From contig NZ_FQZU01000019.1 in NCBI RefSeq assembly GCF_900142135.1, positions 1 through 64,000 of the forward strand: DNA of 64,000 nt, written 5' to 3'. The DNA comes from Desulfatibacillum alkenivorans DSM 16219. GTDB lineage: Bacteria > Desulfobacterota > Desulfobacteria > Desulfobacterales > Desulfatibacillaceae. A model generated the notes under the pieces. It saw only the letters and a program-made list of their open reading frames with translations. It was not told the DNA's origin and did no database searches. Made by a program: the position numbers and the translations under genes. Below, in pieces: positions 31,316 to 47,946 of the stretch (positions are counted from its first letter, which is position 1; each line of letters begins with the position of its first letter).

Positions 31316-31337
31316 CTATTAGTCACCTATTAGTCAC
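31316..31337 (+). repeat. Tandem 11-bp direct repeat near the element end
   Basis: CTATTAGTCAC occurs twice back to back (31316-31326 and 31327-31337). TGACTAA at 31285-31291 is the reverse complement of its TTAGTCA core. Short direct repeats at one element end are typical of arm-type binding sites of integrases or excisionases. Confidence 0.5.
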
Positions 31338-31507
31338 AAACTGAGTGATCTCCCATGACCTCCAGTGATCAAATTCCGGGAAAATTATTTTTCTTACACC
31401 TCATTTTCCACCTTCGCTCAAAATCCTTATGGGCGTCATTTTCAATCTTTTTTTAATTTTTTTGCCGTTTCAAACGTAAAAAACGTTCCCTTATAGCCTA
31501 CCCCCCT

Positions 31508-36995: not shown

Positions 36996-37117
36996 TTGGG
37001 AGGGTAGGGATAGTTGGAAGGCTTTGTAGTAAACTTTGGTATAGGAATTTACCCCCCTATAGAGGGGTTTCCCTACGAAAGCCTCCAAACCCTCCAAAGT
37101 GTCCCAAACCCTCCCAA
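36996..37117 (+). repeat. Copy A of the roughly 105-bp dispersed repeat
   Basis: This copy lies between the helicase stop and the polymerase start. It begins TTGGGAGGGTAGGGATAG, contains TTTGTAGTAAACTTTGGTAT and a central hairpin CCCCTATAGAGGGG, and ends with CCAAACCCTCC. By eye it matches the reverse complement of 50,950-51,059 at over 80 percent of positions. Outer GGGAGGGT and ACCCTCCC arms make it an imperfect inverted repeat in itself. Confidence 0.7.
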
Positions 37118-37136
37118 ATATAAAGAAAGTACCCTT

Positions 37137-39707
37137 ATGAACATTCTTGATCTATTAAAAGAAGACAATTTTAAACCGGTGAAGGTTGCCAACACCAAGG
37201 GCGGGGAGTATGCGTGTTCCTGCCCATGGTGTGGCGGCGACGATCGGTTTCGCATCTGGCCCAAGCAAGGCAGCGGCAGGTTCTGGTGTAGGCAATGCAA
37301 AAAGTCAGGCGACAGAATCACATACCTGATGGATTATCGAAAAGAATCCTATCCCAATGCCTGCGCCTTATTGGGCATTAAACCTAAACCCAAGACATAT
37401 TCCATATTGTCCAAGCCCAAGGCTCCCAACGGCTCATTCACGCCCTGGAAACCCTATCCGATTAAATACCCATCCCGCGATTGGCAGACTCAGGCCCGAT
37501 TTTTTGTGTTCCAGGTCAGGGACAAATTATTAAAGAGCCCAGAAATTCTATCATACCTGAATAGCCGTGGCCTAAAATTGGACACAATTAAAAGGGCCTT
37601 TCTTGGATTCAATCCCGAAGACCGCTTTGAAGACAGAACCAAGTGGGGATTGCCGGAAGAGATGAATGTCCAGGGCAATCCTAAAAAGCTCTGGATTCCG
37701 AGAGGTATTGTGATCCCTTGTTATCGCAACGAGCAACTGGTTAGAGTTCGTGTTCGCCGAATGAATGAAGACGTGGAAAGAGACCGGCAACGAAATTCTT
37801 ATCGGGAGCCTATTCGGTATTACAATCTCCCTGGTGGAGACGCCCATGCCTGCATGGTGCAAAATCAGAGCCCTTTTTACATAGTCGTAGAGTCCGACCT
37901 GGACGCAATTTTATTGGATCAAGAAGCCGGTGATTTAATCTCCGCTTTGGCTCTTGGTTCTGCACAGAATAGACCAGATGAAGAAACGTGCAGAGCCTTG
38001 AATGATGCGAAGGTTATACTCTTATCCTTGGACGCCGATTCTGCGGGAGCGAAAGAAGCCTGGACTTGGTGGCAAAATCAATTCCCCAACATGATTCGTT
38101 GGGCTCCGGTAAACGGCAAAGACCCTGGTGAGATGCATGAGAATGGAGAGAGCCTGAAGAACTGGATCGCAGCAGGGCTAAATAAAGCCGGTTATCTGGT
38201 GCAAGCATTGGCCCTGAGAAAGCAAGGAGCCGACGAACCACAGGTGATATCGGTTCCAGCAGACATGGCATTGGAGGACTTATTAGACCGGTTGAAGGAC
38301 AAAAAACGGATTGCTGTCAACCTGGTTACTTCGGGCGACGATCCGTTCACCCATCACATCCTAAAAGTATACTTGGCGGCTGATGATTGCCCTATTCTGT
38401 GTGTTGATCTATCCAAGCTCCCAGATTCTGAACTGGACCCGTTACGTCAATTTTTTGAGTCCGGTGTTCCCAAGATTTTCTTCAATGCCAAGCCCCAGCT
38501 CCAGTTTCTATGGCGATCTGGGTTTAAGGTGAACGGTGGAATTGTGGATCTGATGCTCGCTGAACAGATTGTAACCGCCGGACTACAGGAACAGCCGCTC
38601 ACCCTTGAAGGTCTGGTAGATAAGTATCTGGGCCACGAATCAACGGATGATGCATCGAGACCTCTGGCGATACTCCAGATGTTGCCCTTTTTAGGAACCA
38701 ACATCACAAAATTGAAGTTACAAAATGTTGCAAGTCTGGAATTCAGATGCATCCAGCCAACAGCACTCATGGAACTGAACGGTATGAAAGTGGATGTTGA
38801 TGGGTGGCAAATCGCATCCCAGTCTTTCAGAGAAGAACTTGCACAAAACCCGGATAACAACAGTCTGAAACACAAAATTGGATTCATGGATAATCTTTGC
38901 AATGCACTTCACCCCGTCACTGGTCGTATTCATGCTCAGTATAGCCAAATAGGGGCTCCCACTGGCAGATTCTCCTGTTCCAATCCTAACATGCAAGGGA
39001 TTCCCAAAGACAAAGTTATCAGGGATTGTTTCGTGGCAGAAGCTGGGCATTGCTTGATCCGAGCAGACTATTCTCAGATTGAACTTCGGATCTTAGCTGA
39101 AATTTCCGGCGACCAACGAATGATCCAAGCCTTTAAGGACGGACAAGACCTCCACAAGCTAACTGCTTCTGAAGTCTCAGGGATCGCCTTTGATGAAGTA
39201 AGTGACGAACTACGCAAAGCAGCCAAGGCTATTAACTTCGGAGTGATCTATGGAATGGGGGCAGAAGGTCTTGTAACGTATGCTTGGAAGAATTTTGGTG
39301 TGCAAATGACCATAGAGCAGGCGAAGGATTACATGGATGGCTTATTCCTGGCTTATCCCGGCGTGAAAAAGTGGCGGGACCAGACTATCCAGAATACTCA
39401 TGCGAAAGAGACATGCACCCTGCTTGGAAGAAAGAGATTCTGGTCTGATGATCCCAAAGTCACAGAGTTGCTGAATTCTCCAATCCAAGGCACTGCCGCC
39501 GACATTATGAAGATTGCCATGAAAAGAGTTTCAGAATGCATTACGGAGTATCCAGCCAAGGTAGTTGCCTGCATCCATGACGAACTTGTTATTGAATCCC
39601 CCATTGAGAAAGCCGAAATCGTCGCCAGAGTGGTTCAATATGAAATGGAAGAATCAGGAAGGCAGGTCTTGAAGAGTGTGCCGGTTGTGGTGGACATTGA
39701 AAGGTAA
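37137..39707 (+). CDS. Primase-like (zinc finger plus TOPRIM) fused to family A DNA polymerase
   Basis: The 856-residue protein has a P4-type zinc finger (C29-x2-C32, C51-x2-C54), a TOPRIM-like region (VVESDLDAI with E252; SLDADSAG with D299 and D301), then an exonuclease fold that has lost its catalytic residues (CVDLSKL keeps only the first Asp; FFNAKPQLQFL has Gln for Asp), and a complete family A polymerase: motif A RADYSQIELR (near 644), motif B RKAAKAINFGVIYG (near 693), motif C IHDELVIE (near 813). It is therefore likely to prime and extend DNA without proofreading. The start at 37137 is chosen because the extra 41 in-frame codons upstream consist of the dispersed repeat. It follows the helicase gene directly. 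Confidence 0.88.
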   Translation: MNILDLLKEDNFKPVKVANTKGGEYACSCPWCGGDDRFRIWPKQGSGRFWCRQCKKSGDRITYLMDYRKESYPNACALLGIKPKPKTYSILSKPKAPNGSFTPWKPYPIKYPSRDWQTQARFFVFQVRDKLLKSPEILSYLNSRGLKLDTIKRAFLGFNPEDRFEDRTKWGLPEEMNVQGNPKKLWIPRGIVIPCYRNEQLVRVRVRRMNEDVERDRQRNSYREPIRYYNLPGGDAHACMVQNQSPFYIVVESDLDAILLDQEAGDLISALALGSAQNRPDEETCRALNDAKVILLSLDADSAGAKEAWTWWQNQFPNMIRWAPVNGKDPGEMHENGESLKNWIAAGLNKAGYLVQALALRKQGADEPQVISVPADMALEDLLDRLKDKKRIAVNLVTSGDDPFTHHILKVYLAADDCPILCVDLSKLPDSELDPLRQFFESGVPKIFFNAKPQLQFLWRSGFKVNGGIVDLMLAEQIVTAGLQEQPLTLEGLVDKYLGHESTDDASRPLAILQMLPFLGTNITKLKLQNVASLEFRCIQPTALMELNGMKVDVDGWQIASQSFREELAQNPDNNSLKHKIGFMDNLCNALHPVTGRIHAQYSQIGAPTGRFSCSNPNMQGIPKDKVIRDCFVAEAGHCLIRADYSQIELRILAEISGDQRMIQAFKDGQDLHKLTASEVSGIAFDEVSDELRKAAKAINFGVIYGMGAEGLVTYAWKNFGVQMTIEQAKDYMDGLFLAYPGVKKWRDQTIQNTHAKETCTLLGRKRFWSDDPKVTELLNSPIQGTAADIMKIAMKRVSECITEYPAKVVACIHDELVIESPIEKAEIVARVVQYEMEESGRQVLKSVPVVVDIER

Positions 39708-41944: not shown

Positions 41945-42093
41945 GATTTCCCTCCATGCAGTTGTCACAGAATGTTGAGTCTCCGCCATATTAACAGGCA
42001 TTTTTATACGAGTCAATACAACAGAATCAACATATCGCCTCCTGTTTTACCAGGACTAAATTGTCTATTTGTTGGGAAACAGGGAGGATAGAT

Positions 42094-42441
42094 ATGTCTG
42101 GTTTGGAGAAGAAGATCGGGAAACGCATAGCGGAATTGCGGATAGAGAATAATCTTACCCAAGCGCAATTGGCTGAGGCAATGGGGCTGAGCGTGGAAAG
42201 CATCTCCAGAATGGAAAGGGGAGTGACTTTTCCATCGGTTAAGACATTAGCAAGGGTAGCTGAGGCTTTGGGGTCGTCTTTGAAGCAGTTTTTCGACTTT
42301 GACGAAAACGAAGTCCAGGGGGAAGGCTATCAACTGGAAATGGCAAAGCTGATTGCCCAGATAAAGAGCCTGGACGAAGGCGAGGTTGTGCTGCTCCGGC
42401 GAATTCTGAAAGAGATTGAGAAGTGGAAAGAAAGCAGGTAG
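42094..42441 (+). CDS. XRE-family helix-turn-helix regulator
   Basis: The 115-residue protein has a classic XRE domain: LEKKIGKRIAELRIENNLTQAQLAEAMGLSVESISRMERGVTFPSVKTLARVAEALG, residues 4-60. A short C-terminal helix region follows (LIAQIKSLDEGEVVLLRRILKEIEK). AGGGAGGATAG precedes the ATG. It is divergent from the small membrane gene at 41534-41944, which may be its target, and lies upstream of the WYL gene on the opposite strand. Confidence 0.85.
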   Translation: MSGLEKKIGKRIAELRIENNLTQAQLAEAMGLSVESISRMERGVTFPSVKTLARVAEALGSSLKQFFDFDENEVQGEGYQLEMAKLIAQIKSLDEGEVVLLRRILKEIEKWKESR

Positions 42442-42635: not shown

Positions 42636-43655
42636 CTACTGATAAGCTGCGAGCATACCCCTAAGTGATTGCACGACTTTTTCTTTCAACCATTCCGGCT
42701 CCAGAATTTTGGCGTTTTCCCTAAAAGACAAAATCCAGGCAATGACCTCGACTTCTGAAGAGGCTTCAAATTCTATGATGGTGCTGCCGTCTTCCTGCTT
42801 TTCAATCTTCTGATGGTCGCTCCAGATTCTTTCACAAGCATAAACCGCAGCATGATGAAAGAATTGGCCTTTAACCAGAAACGTCTTTCCTTTCATAATC
42901 CCAAAGGTCTTATTGAAGAATGCCTCAAAATCATAGTTTTGTGGTGGCTCGAAAGTGTTTTCCAATACTTCTACCTTGTTGAATCTATGGACCGAAAAAA
43001 GTGGGAAAAAATCATCCTCTTTATTCGGTTCTCCCTGTGGGTTCGAGCGCTGGGCATGAACATAGAGAGAGTCTTTGTGGGAAAAAATTTTTAAAGGCAA
43101 TATATGAAAAGAATGTGCCTTTTCAGCATAGAGTGCCTGGTATGAAACCCGGCACACCCGCTTGCTGGAGATTGCTGTTATGAGATTCTGCAATATATCC
43201 TGGTAGGGAGTATAATCGATGGTGCCAGGGCTGATGCTCCCAAACTCATTGCCGGTAGTTCCACATTCGCCGTCTGACAACAATCCATAGCTTTTCTGCA
43301 TGGCCCTTGTCGCTTCTTCAAACTGTTTATCGCCTAAAAGATGCCGGGTGAATGCTTGGCACATTTCCAAAATGGCAATTTCGTTGGTGGACAAAGGAAG
43401 GATGGGATATCTTTTAACTGTGGGAATACGGAAATAGAGCTGTTTGCCAACCTTCTCTTCTTCGATTGGAATGAAATGGGACATACATATATCATCAACT
43501 ATGCGCCTGACCGTGGGCTTTGAACAATCCAGCATTCTTGCCAACTCGGTCATGGATCTGCGTCTTCCTGTGAAAAGCAGGTCAGCAAAAACCTGAATTA
43601 TTTTCTCTCCATACCTGGAATCAGGATTATTTTTTCTGGGCACTTTTTTCTCCAT
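42636..43655 (-). CDS. WYL-domain transcriptional regulator
   Basis: The 339-residue protein has an N-terminal winged helix of the DeoR/HTH_11 type (EKIIQVFADLLFTGRRRSMTELARMLDCSKPTVRRIVDDI), residues 15-58, and a WYL domain (about 150-240) with ITAISSKRVCRVSYQALYAEKAHSFHILPLKIFSHKDSLYVHA, then a C-terminal WCX region. WYL regulators such as BrxR and CapW control phage-defence operons through a nucleic-acid or nucleotide ligand. This one is divergent from the FtsZ-like operon and shares an 89-base promoter region with it. Confidence 0.87.
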   Translation of the reverse strand: MEKKVPRKNNPDSRYGEKIIQVFADLLFTGRRRSMTELARMLDCSKPTVRRIVDDICMSHFIPIEEEKVGKQLYFRIPTVKRYPILPLSTNEIAILEMCQAFTRHLLGDKQFEEATRAMQKSYGLLSDGECGTTGNEFGSISPGTIDYTPYQDILQNLITAISSKRVCRVSYQALYAEKAHSFHILPLKIFSHKDSLYVHAQRSNPQGEPNKEDDFFPLFSVHRFNKVEVLENTFEPPQNYDFEAFFNKTFGIMKGKTFLVKGQFFHHAAVYACERIWSDHQKIEKQEDGSTIIEFEASSEVEVIAWILSFRENAKILEPEWLKEKVVQSLRGMLAAYQ

Positions 43656-43660
43656 TTTTT

Positions 43661-43697
43661 ATTATCGTTATGTTTAATGAAACGATAGCATGATAAT
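43661..43697. promoter_or_regulatory. Shared promoter/operator between WYL gene and FtsZ-like operon
   Basis: TATCGTT (43663-43669) and AACGATA (43681-43687) form a perfect inverted repeat, and ATTATC...GATAAT extends the symmetry. GATAAT at 43692-43697, preceded by A-T, is a good extended -10 for the rightward operon, with the inverted repeat lying over its -35. Control by the WYL regulator is the simplest reading. Confidence 0.5.
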
Positions 43698-43744
43698 AGT
43701 CCTCCTGTAAATTTGGATCTATTTCAATTCCAGGGGAGGGCTAC

Positions 43745-44617
43745 ATGCTGATCACGAGGAGATCCTTTGTATCGGACATGAGCCGAATCGGTCTTTTGGT
43801 GGGTGCCGCCAGCATCATGAACGGGGTATCGTTCCTGATGCCCCGTGCGGCTGATGGAGTAGATGTGAACCGCGACGAAAATCTTGACTTTGGCCTCAAG
43901 GCTTGTGTCGTGGGTGTAGGCCAAGCAGGCTTGGCGATCACAAGTCAACTGCAGTTCGATCAACCGGCGCACAGGCTTCCAGTCATGCACCTTGACCGGG
44001 ATCATGCTTTGGTGTCGCGTGTGCTCGCTTCAAGCCACCTGGTCTTTATGGCAGGGTCGATAAAGGATCCCGCGCTTGACGCATTGCGAACACTGGCTGC
44101 TGATTTAGGCGTCAGTTTGTTGGTGTTGTTCGAGGATATGCCAGAAATCAGCGGAATTGCTCACTCCCTCAGCCCAAGTGATAGAGAGTGTGTAGTGCCC
44201 TTGAATAGGCGTACTGAATTTGGGATGGCGAGCACCGTGATCAGTGAAATATACGGAGCACTGGCCCTACCTGGCCTCGTCTGCATGGATTTTGCGGATG
44301 TGCACGATGTGCTGTCTGGGATAATCTGCCGGACGTACACCCTGGTTGCCGCTGACATCAAAACCGGCATCAGGGTTTTCAGGGAGAGGCTGGATATAAC
44401 ACGTACCTTGTCCAAGGTGGATGGAGGTCTTGTGATCCTGTCCACGGATCATAACCGGCAGGAACCGCTTGAGTCGTACTTAGAGTTCGAGGAGGAACTA
44501 CATCGTCACGTTCGCCCCGATGCTAACATCTTTTGGTGCGCGAATGTGCTGGGGGCGATGCCTGAAGGTTTTCGCATGACAGTCATTGCGGGTCAGCGCC
44601 CGAATAGCGGAATTTAA
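43745..44617 (+). CDS. FtsZ/tubulin-fold-like protein with twin-arginine leader
   Basis: The 290-residue protein starts LITRRSFVSDMSRIGLLVGAASIM, a twin-arginine-type leader (Arg5-Arg6, Phe8, hydrophobic 15-33). After it the sequence lines up with FtsZ from end to end: ACVVGVGQAGL (nucleotide T1 region), SSHLVFMAG (strand before T4), LPGLVCMDFADVHDVL (T7-loop segment with D182 and D185, as in NVDFADV) and ANIFWCANVLGAMPEGFRMTVIAG (C-terminal subdomain). The GGGTGTG tubulin signature is absent; SIKDPAL stands in its place, so GTP binding is unlikely in the classic form. GGGGAGGG precedes the ATG by five bases, which supports this start. Likely localised to the membrane or periplasm. Function unknown. 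Confidence 0.6.
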   Translation: MLITRRSFVSDMSRIGLLVGAASIMNGVSFLMPRAADGVDVNRDENLDFGLKACVVGVGQAGLAITSQLQFDQPAHRLPVMHLDRDHALVSRVLASSHLVFMAGSIKDPALDALRTLAADLGVSLLVLFEDMPEISGIAHSLSPSDRECVVPLNRRTEFGMASTVISEIYGALALPGLVCMDFADVHDVLSGIICRTYTLVAADIKTGIRVFRERLDITRTLSKVDGGLVILSTDHNRQEPLESYLEFEEELHRHVRPDANIFWCANVLGAMPEGFRMTVIAGQRPNSGI

Positions 44618-44631
44618 TAGGGAGGACCATC

Positions 44632-45000
44632 ATGTTTTTACCCGCGTTTACACCTTGGGAAACCGATGAACTTATTCTGCAGAATGTTTCCAAACTTAGC
44701 CATGTGGATATTGGGAACCCTGATTCAGTCCATGAAAGAATTACCATTCTTGAATCACTGGGAAGTGTTGCAGAAAATGGGTTGATTGAGTACGGCTCTC
44801 CTATAGACGAGAATGAGGCCAGATTCGTTATGGACATTTTTTGGAATGCTTTTAATATGTTAAAACGAGAAGAAGGATTGCACTTTAAAATTGCCCTTAT
44901 CCAATATAAGTGTTGTCTAAGGCTTCTCCATTTAGTCTTTGGTTTGCTTTACGATAACTTTGGCTTTGAAATGCCGGAAAAAATGAGATATATGGTGTAG
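44632..45000 (+). CDS. 122-residue protein of the FtsZ-like operon
   Basis: The protein follows the FtsZ-like gene by 14 bases with GGAGG before its ATG. It is helical, with an N-terminal acidic half (WETDELILQNVSKLSHVDIG, ARFVMDIFWNAFNML) and a more hydrophobic C-terminal part (YKCCLRLLHLVFGLLYDNFG). No motif is recognised. The spacing indicates translational coupling and a shared task with its neighbour. Confidence 0.65.
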   Translation: MFLPAFTPWETDELILQNVSKLSHVDIGNPDSVHERITILESLGSVAENGLIEYGSPIDENEARFVMDIFWNAFNMLKREEGLHFKIALIQYKCCLRLLHLVFGLLYDNFGFEMPEKMRYMV

Positions 45001-47412: not shown

Positions 47413-47946
47413 TCACCGTATGAATTTACCGTATTCATCTGATATATATAGAGCAAATACTCGTAATTGATCTACTGTAAAAATAATTTCAAAATCTTTT
47501 ATTTTAGATTTTGTTATATTATACAATCTAACGCTAACAATGGAACCGTGTTGATTTAAAGGTTCAATATTCGTATGGGCAATAGCATGCCTAATTTTAC
47601 GTATGAACCACGACTTCTTCATATTATTTTTTAGATCAATTTTGTGTTTTACAGATAATCCTGGTGTACTGGTTACTTGCGTATCGCATAAATTACCAAC
47701 ATCCAGCTCATTGAACTGAATATATCCAATTTGATTTGGAATTACATTGAAAAACTCATCGTCTATATCCCCAGAAAACGGACTATCTCTATCAGGATTT
47801 TCCGATACAGTAACAATTAATCCGAGCAAACAGTTGAGGAGAAAAGTCACCTCCTTATCTTTTTCTAAAAAATGACAGTAACTATTAACTAACATTTCGT
47901 GAGTTCGTTTGACAAAATCTCGTGAAAAAGAATGCATTTCAGTCAT
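47413..47946 (-). CDS. Unknown AT-rich 177-residue protein
   Basis: The product contains SYCHFLEKDKEVTFLLNCLLGLIVTVSEN and RKIRHAIAHTNIEPLNQHGSIVSVRLYNI. The latter, an RxxxAH-type segment followed by a beta-strand, is similar to the HEPN-like RNLIAH/RHAIAH motif (Arg-x4-6-His), so a HEPN fold is possible. It is AT-rich compared with its neighbours, which suggests recent transfer. An upstream AAAGGAT lies before the start. Confidence in any function is low. Confidence 0.55.
   Translation of the reverse strand: MTEMHSFSRDFVKRTHEMLVNSYCHFLEKDKEVTFLLNCLLGLIVTVSENPDRDSPFSGDIDDEFFNVIPNQIGYIQFNELDVGNLCDTQVTSTPGLSVKHKIDLKNNMKKSWFIRKIRHAIAHTNIEPLNQHGSIVSVRLYNITKSKIKDFEIIFTVDQLRVFALYISDEYGKFIR

Follow-up and report, generated by a model that had tools for sequence, protein, structure and literature searches.

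We identified, in a window of 64,000 nucleotides (positions 1 to 64,000 of contig NZ_FQZU01000019.1 of Desulfatibacillum alkenivorans DSM 16219), a gene for a 290-residue relative of FtsZ which starts with a predicted twin-arginine translocation (Tat) leader and has lost the motifs of the GTP pocket. Judged from sequence, this protein (P0001) and its homologues, which we refer to as pseudo-FtsZ, appear to form a leader-bearing branch of the FtsZ superfamily, whose members are known as cytoplasmic GTPases. The genes appear to be cargo of modules under WYL control, which sit on integrative elements and in defence-rich regions within a single bacterial order. The identity of the protein as an FtsZ relative has good support: its C-terminal half is FtsZ by sequence, and its N-terminal half is linked to FtsZ by gene order and by two modest AlphaFold models, with no clear sequence similarity. 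The gene and its parts are located as follows.

43745..44617, + strand: pseudo-FtsZ P0001 with Tat leader, 290 residues (open reading frame (ORF) and translation, TIGR00065 at E 7.9e-4, profile comparison, models)
43732..43740, + strand: ribosome-binding site aggggaggg, before the ATG of P0001 (sequence)
43745..43843, + strand: leader, residues 1-33, with MLITRRSFV, a short weakly hydrophobic stretch and then GVSFLMP (family motifs, hydropathy)
43907..43936, + strand: T1-like GxGxxG loop, residues 55-64 (position and weak alignment only)
44057..44083, + strand: T4 position, residues 105-113, SIKDPALDA instead of GGGTGTG (alignments)
44213..44593, + strand: FtsZ C-terminal half (H7 to S10), residues 157-283 (hhalign local 98.9%, E 1.6e-17)
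44270..44314, + strand: T7-like loop PGLVCMDFADVHDVL, residues 176-190 (conservation of D-x-x-D)

The motifs that a preliminary description had quoted from this ORF were all recovered in the translation, namely TRRSFV at residues 4-9, VVGVGQAGL at 55-63, SSHLVFMAG at 96-104, SIKDPAL at 105-111, LPGLVCMDFADVHDVL at 175-190 and ANIFWCANVLGAMPEGFRMTVIAG at 260-283, and the strong ribosome-binding site that it had proposed is present upstream of the ATG. A wrong start codon producing the leader was dropped as an explanation since relatives have the leader too. An ordinary ftsZ carrying a frameshift was dropped as well, as an intact ftsZ lies elsewhere in the genome and the relatives are intact; a GGGTGTG in a shifted frame was not sought.

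When P0001 alone was searched against NCBIfam, one model was matched, TIGR00065 (ftsZ), over residues 166-282 and with 18.8 bits, below the equivalog threshold (curated cut-off 295.2); the same model matched six of the seven aligned family members, P0001 among them, and Pfam and PADLOC searches of P0001 gave no match. The family profile matched FtsZ in PDB (best E 1.9e-15) and reached E 1e-12 or better in 352 of the 389 genomes of the class sample, where most of the rows listed were FtsZ-length frames matched in their C-terminal half only. Each half of the protein was compared with a profile of 38 FtsZ proteins and with 30 column shuffles per half, the columns being permuted within one half so that order alone was tested. 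The C-terminal half (residues 157-290) scored 115.6 with E 1.6e-17 against a shuffle maximum of 17.0, and the N-terminal half (50-156) scored 27.7 with E 0.0021 and a probability of 13% against a shuffle maximum of 25.3; as the latter lies barely above its shuffle maximum, sequence alone fails to identify an FtsZ GTPase domain there. The earlier claim that the body lines up with FtsZ in order stands for the C-terminal half, and by sequence it does not extend to the N-terminal half, where order and low-confidence models agree with the T1-like reading of VVGVGQAGL and clear sequence similarity is missing. The broader claim of an FtsZ relative was borne out by the match of the C-terminal half and by a predicted fold closest to FtsZ.

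A two-domain FtsZ fold is predicted for pseudo-FtsZ. AlphaFold models of P0001 and one relative, built from four rows, had mean predicted local distance difference test (pLDDT) values of 54.0 and 62.7 and predicted template modelling (pTM) scores of 0.59 and 0.63, respectively. In a second-look structural comparison, which was confined to Foldseek's own candidates, 50 of 50 listed entries for the P0001 model were FtsZ (top 4e6e, Z 14.0, root mean square deviation (rmsd) 4.4, 218 aligned), and the entries listed for the relative's model comprised 49 FtsZ and one CetZ (top 2q1x_A, Z 15.5, rmsd 3.8, 217 aligned). Foldseek itself found no match with E below 0.001 for the P0001 model, and FtsZ entries held ranks 2, 3, 6 and 8 with probability 0.93-1.00. 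Against viral models, the relative's model gave five matches below 0.001, including FtsZ, Tubulin and Cell division protein entries, two of the five carrying no useful name. Structure prediction, which had been suggested as a check on the fold, gave models closest to FtsZ and predicted no other fold.

The losses that set the family apart were read from a MAFFT alignment to 13 proteins of the FtsZ type, among them that of the genome itself, from S3 on, as the leader region was misplaced in it. GGGTGTG and the T2/T3 stretch are missing from the family, as are 17 residues at T6/H6, the C-terminal linker and the C-terminal peptide; family members end shortly past S10, P0009 alone having been noted with a short extra tail. 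None of the seven members covering the site has GGGTGTG or the other motifs of the GTP pocket. The replacement of GGGTGTG by SIKDPAL in P0001, as first described, holds, and the classical GTP-binding motifs are lost across the family; a search for homologues sharing both features found relatives with the leader and without GGGTGTG. The D-x-x-D of T7 is present in seven of the seven members reaching it, and the Asn of the T7 NxD in one of seven, Cys standing in its place in P0001. A different motif, DF[WF]xxR (DFWIARE in several), was observed at the T4 place in six of the eight members, P0001 and P0002 being those without it, and is possibly a new site.

The twin-arginine leader was also sustained, as RRxF is common to all eight starts seen and the homologues do not start after the leader. 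S or T precedes the motif in seven of these eight and its final K is found in six; in P0001 it reads TRRSFVS, compared with the Tat consensus [ST]RRxF[LIVM]K. A second motif, [GAS][LFV]x[FY]x(1-2)P, follows the hydrophobic stretch in all eight leaders. The pattern [STN]RR.F[LVIM] within the first 25 residues was found in eight of the 337 six-frame ORFs of at least 100 residues in 13 sequences, a set to which P0002 (from locus L014) does not belong; seven of the eight are family members or a chimera from locus L098, and the eighth is a neighbour in locus L046. Leader hydropathy is 1.5-1.9 over 13 residues, and such a short, mild hydrophobic stretch is typical of Tat signals. The model TIGR01409 (TAT_signal_seq) matched three of seven members at E up to 1, of which P0002 reached 22.2 bits, above the curated cut-off of 16.7, and gave no match on P0001. 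A TatC gene is present in the genome. The L046 neighbour (L046:4461-5027, - strand), which adjoins P0006 on the same strand, carries another twin-arginine leader, ITRRKFL and then cysteines. The chimera (L098:7092-7838, - strand) joins the family leader and an FtsZ-like N-terminus to the second half of Endonuclease_NS, a family that is often secreted. Through this neighbour with its Tat-type leader and this fusion, the gene slot looks like one for export cargo.

The relatives are few. Nine genomes of the same family gave one other match (25% identity). When 389 genomes of the order were searched with a three-row profile, the listed matches that extend into the leader came from seven genomes: G000 (that of the window), G005, G240 (with the N-terminal part alone), G677, G431, G726 and G652. 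The remaining rows of the listing begin near column 161 or further on and resemble ordinary FtsZ. With a seven-row profile at E 1e-22, three were found among 395 genomes of the phylum, all of them in the order, and none among the 378 outside it. Relatives are known in Desulfobacula sp., Desulfamplus magnetovallimortis and a deltaproteobacterium, and judged from the named relatives the range of the family here is one order, Desulfobacterales. The tally comprises six full-length members, the second G431 copy, which is interrupted by the end of its contig, a truncated member (L015) and the L098 chimera. A tblastn search of plasmids and phages gave no match to pseudo-FtsZ; among viral contigs, two stretches encode a relative of P0001, perhaps near-own records, and searches there with A3, P0002, P0009 and P0007 found no relative. 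A scan of genome contigs returned three loci, all of them already-known members.

Where they were compared, the six intact open frames share 20-46% identity. Over 296 codons of the closest pair (46% identity), differences number 116 at the first codon position, 86 at the second and 186 at the third, a pattern that fits purifying selection, and 75 of the 137 identical residues are encoded by different codons. In L014, P0002 adjoins P0003 (L014:463-1053, - strand), an FtsZ-like protein with GGGTGSG that extends no further than the GTPase domain; by eye, a transposase-like fragment lies close to it, and the locus has a GNAT-like gene as well. It also carries a tandem AAA gene, whose best NCBIfam match, IteA, is far below the cut-off. 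A general pairing of pseudo-FtsZ with a second FtsZ, for which P0003 beside P0002 would speak, was rejected because the six remaining member genomes gave one match apiece, in a frame of 409-442 residues.

The surroundings of the gene suggest how it may be controlled, and the following features of the window bear on this.

42636..43655, - strand: WYL-WCX regulator, 339 residues, with a probable N-terminal helix-turn-helix (HTH), divergent from the pseudo-FtsZ gene (Pfam)
43665..43698, no strand: putative operator in the stretch that separates the divergent pair, TCGTTATGTTTAATGAAACGATAGCATGATAATA; relatives show TCGTTCCATnnnATGGAA...CATGATAATA, of which it is a divergent form (intergenic comparison by eye)
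44632..45000, + strand: 122-residue protein, 14 bases downstream of pseudo-FtsZ, probably in the same operon (ORF list)
42061..42441, + strand: XRE-type regulator near the WYL gene (HTH_3, 8.1e-16)

In the divergent regulator, Pfam recognised WYL (31.7 bits) and WCX (53.9 bits), both above the cut-off, and HTH models matched residues 32-76 below it. The protein is 39-40% identical to the products of genes beside P0006, P0008 and P0009. A WYL-WCX regulator faces four of the six full-length members, and these four are the strongest full-length WYL matches in the seven member genomes, G005 and G240 having partial matches only at E 1e-10 genome-wide. Among 86 genomes of the Desulfamplus family, seven had a WYL match at 1e-40, which lies beside pseudo-FtsZ in G652 and G726 and beside the chimera in G752. 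As these WYL genes stand beside differing neighbours, the regulator seems to control variable cargo. In PDB, at E up to 1, it matched 7u02, 7tzv, 9cu3, 8tp8 and 9pfq, named as WYL or DeoR-family regulators; the four others presumably represent the same protein as 7tzv, as the same stretch was matched with like scores. The chain 7tzv belongs to a complex of DriD (PMC12340889).

The palindrome TTCCATNNNATGGAA is exact between the divergent genes of L046, L048, L049, L097, L098 and L100, a placement that assumes conserved starts, since the longest ORFs sometimes overlap the palindrome. The copy in L099 is one base off and that of the window more, a second copy in L049 lies upstream of a DnaB-like gene, and 80 of the 101 loci (many of them overlapping) are without it. 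A conserved protein of about 190 residues is encoded between the regulator and the pseudo-FtsZ gene in L046, L048 and L049. The 122-residue downstream protein of the window had no Pfam or PADLOC match. In L048 the WYL gene has as its neighbour a small ORF that, by eye, resembles that of the XRE-type regulator, and in L049 such an ORF lies at a distance of two genes from it.

The location on a mobile element, proposed in the preliminary description, was supported by an integrase-bearing element with direct end repeats, which end at 31343 and contig 66202, about 34.9 kb apart.

31318..31343, no strand: left end repeat of the element, 26 bases long, with a single mismatch against contig 66177-66202 (the last 16 exact)

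The right repeat stands just past a tyrosine integrase (contig 65021-66142), beyond the window; with uniform base use, about 0.02 exact 16-base repeats are expected between the two compared stretches. The stretch 31317-31343 has a partial tandem copy, TATTAGTCACCTATTAGTCACAAACTG, and the right end likewise with one mismatch. Between the repeats lie a D5-type primase-helicase, a fusion of primase and polymerase A, an exonuclease, a 200-residue integrase fragment and type I restriction genes. The gene at 37014-39707 (+ strand) encodes an 897-residue protein combining a primase zinc ribbon, a primase-like region, a 3'-5' exonuclease and DNA polymerase A, and that at 47413-47946 (- strand), also inside the element, a protein of the HEPN pEK499_p136 family. 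None of 20 proteins from between the repeats fell into a PHROGs family labelled structural, and in an empty-site comparison G001 matched the right flank only, at 77%. Among the other loci, L048 carries the Gabija genes GajA and GajB (L048:2834-6840, + strand) about 1.2 kb from its pseudo-FtsZ copy, and L047 is set among phage-type genes, e.g. for ERF-like and SSB-like proteins (by eye). In L098 the chimera adjoins a gene for a 345-residue protein with an MraZ domain at its end (L098:7889-8926, - strand; 37.5 bits, cut-off 23), and the locus also carries a DNase-type toxin domain with a SUKH protein.

To account for this arrangement we tentatively favour, short of an even chance, a stress- or phage-induced, Tat-exported pseudo-FtsZ that acts at the envelope or the divisome as WYL-regulated mobile cargo; we infer its export, induction and target. 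The WYL protein would keep the operon off or poised and would sense single-stranded DNA (ssDNA) or another sign of phage entry or damage, by analogy with DriD and PafBC and, for defence operons, with CapW/BrxR. The divergent operon might then be induced, for which the palindrome speaks, and the pseudo-FtsZ would fold in the cytoplasm before being taken by Tat, its motif being the observed part of this step. It could then remain at the inner membrane or beyond it, serving as a non-enzymatic scaffold, for which SufI/FtsP and DidA are precedents, and interfere with the divisome or the envelope such that division is paused or infection blocked. The MraZ domain next to the chimera and the parallel with DriD point to division, and a more specific form, in which a nucleotide-free member of the FtsZ/tubulin superfamily outside the cytoplasm, as a Tat-exported effector, provides a mobile division checkpoint induced by stress or phage, is possible and rather doubtful.

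Several observations weigh against this account. An AxA-type cleavage site is plausible in P0002 (SYA) and lacking in clean form, by eye, from most leaders, which makes cleavage doubtful, and a conserved motif directly past the hydrophobic stretch appears unusual for a cleaved peptide. Both T7 aspartates are kept, though GTP would be absent outside the cytoplasm. The best Foldseek E-value for the P0001 model belongs to EngA (E 2.2e-3, probability 0.80, TM 0.25). No WYL gene was found beside two of the six full-length members, one being in L014, a contig of 4.3 kb, and the other in G431, which has no genome-wide match at E 1e-10. Conversely, G606, G735, G586 and G774 have a related WYL gene and no pseudo-FtsZ in the stretch read, the frame being broken in G586 and the contig ending inside the gene in G774. 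The palindrome of the window is degenerate, and the 31-base consensus with up to three mismatches finds no match in the window.

The chief rival, a cytoplasmic FtsZ poison, we consider unlikely. Here the leader would only target the protein to the inner membrane, and the T7/C-terminal face would cap host FtsZ filaments at their GTP-bearing end, because pseudo-FtsZ, having no pocket itself, would be unable to accept a further subunit, and division would stop. By sequence it is the T7-bearing half that has been retained, the pocket motifs have disappeared, and the D-x-x-D pair, kept in all seven, argues for a cap; FtsZ T7 inserts into the pocket of the neighbouring subunit (PMC8456036), and phage FtsZ blockers such as T7 Gp0.4 are known (PMC13423816). 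However, the Asn of T7 is lost in six of seven, the Tat motif at all eight starts suggests real export, and L098 is without the C-terminal half, though that gene may be dead. Distinctly less favoured is an exported or anchored FtsZ-derived fold with a role outside division, e.g. an envelope barrier to phage DNA, which is consistent with the Tat leader, the Endonuclease_NS half in the same slot in L098, the Gabija genes near the pseudo-FtsZ of L048 and the type I restriction genes of the window's element, whereas the MraZ protein next to the chimera and the DriD parallel indicate division.

Alternatively, the protein could be a chimera in which the C-terminal half of FtsZ was joined to a Rossmann-like N-terminal domain of unrelated origin, given that by sequence the N-terminal half shows no clear likeness to FtsZ, that GxGxxG resembles dinucleotide folds and that mean pLDDT is just 54 and 63; yet both models superpose on FtsZ over both domains (Z 14.0 and 15.5) and the order of the elements agrees, so that we regard such a chimera as quite improbable. 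Hardly better placed is a decoy of the host FtsZ, one that would attract phage inhibitors of FtsZ and signal their presence to a defence system. It has a precedent in CapRel-Ebc, which senses T7 Gp0.4 in complex with FtsZ (PMC13423816), but the leader would carry the bait away from cytoplasmic phage proteins and no effector domain is fused to it. The chance of a decaying, functionless ftsZ copy seems negligible: one relative is truncated, one is fused and the gene is rare, but six frames remain intact at 20-46% identity with a codon pattern fitting purifying selection.

Compared with known systems, pseudo-FtsZ resembles FtsZ (TIGR00065) in the sequence of its C-terminal half, the predicted two-domain fold and the T7 aspartates, and differs in the missing GGGTGTG, T2/T3, T6/H6 and C-terminal linker and peptide and in its Tat leader. 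No exported or Tat-tagged FtsZ in print was found among the search listings of an open-licence library. FtsZl1 and FtsZl2 are likewise divergent FtsZ-superfamily proteins beside ordinary FtsZ (PMC2875224); FtsZl1 was proposed to work in membrane remodelling and most of its operons have a vWA gene (PMC2875224), whereas no vWA family was present among the pseudo-FtsZ neighbours scanned with Pfam. Odinarchaeal FtsZ1 has an N-terminal membrane element, as does pseudo-FtsZ with its leader, but this is an amphipathic helix instead of a twin-arginine leader, and the protein forms protofilaments (PMC12583498). SufI/FtsP of E. coli is likewise a Tat substrate with an enzyme fold devoid of its cofactor, a metal-free oxidase fold with a proposed scaffold role in the septal ring; the fold is multicopper-oxidase-like and has no relation to FtsZ (PMC2661564).

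If the account of an exported effector is true, the FtsZ fold can be recruited by mobile elements as a non-enzymatic effector. Pseudo-FtsZ also provides a directly testable candidate for a module of division arrest or exclusion that is controlled by a regulator of DriD/CapW type. CapW and BrxR are likewise WYL regulators, whose binding site at a defence operon is a palindrome or an inverted repeat, but they are repressors of CBASS and BREX, and the text consulted mentions no FtsZ-like cargo (PMC9122588, PMC9122601). DriD of Caulobacter is an ssDNA-binding regulator that activates the division inhibitor DidA as well as an operon lying divergent to driD (PMC12340889, a preprint). Although DidA is a membrane protein binding FtsN and no relative of FtsZ, and didA is not divergent from driD, the DriD-DidA system shares with the module described here a WYL regulator and a divergent target operon, its output being a division inhibitor (PMC12340889, PMC4211646).
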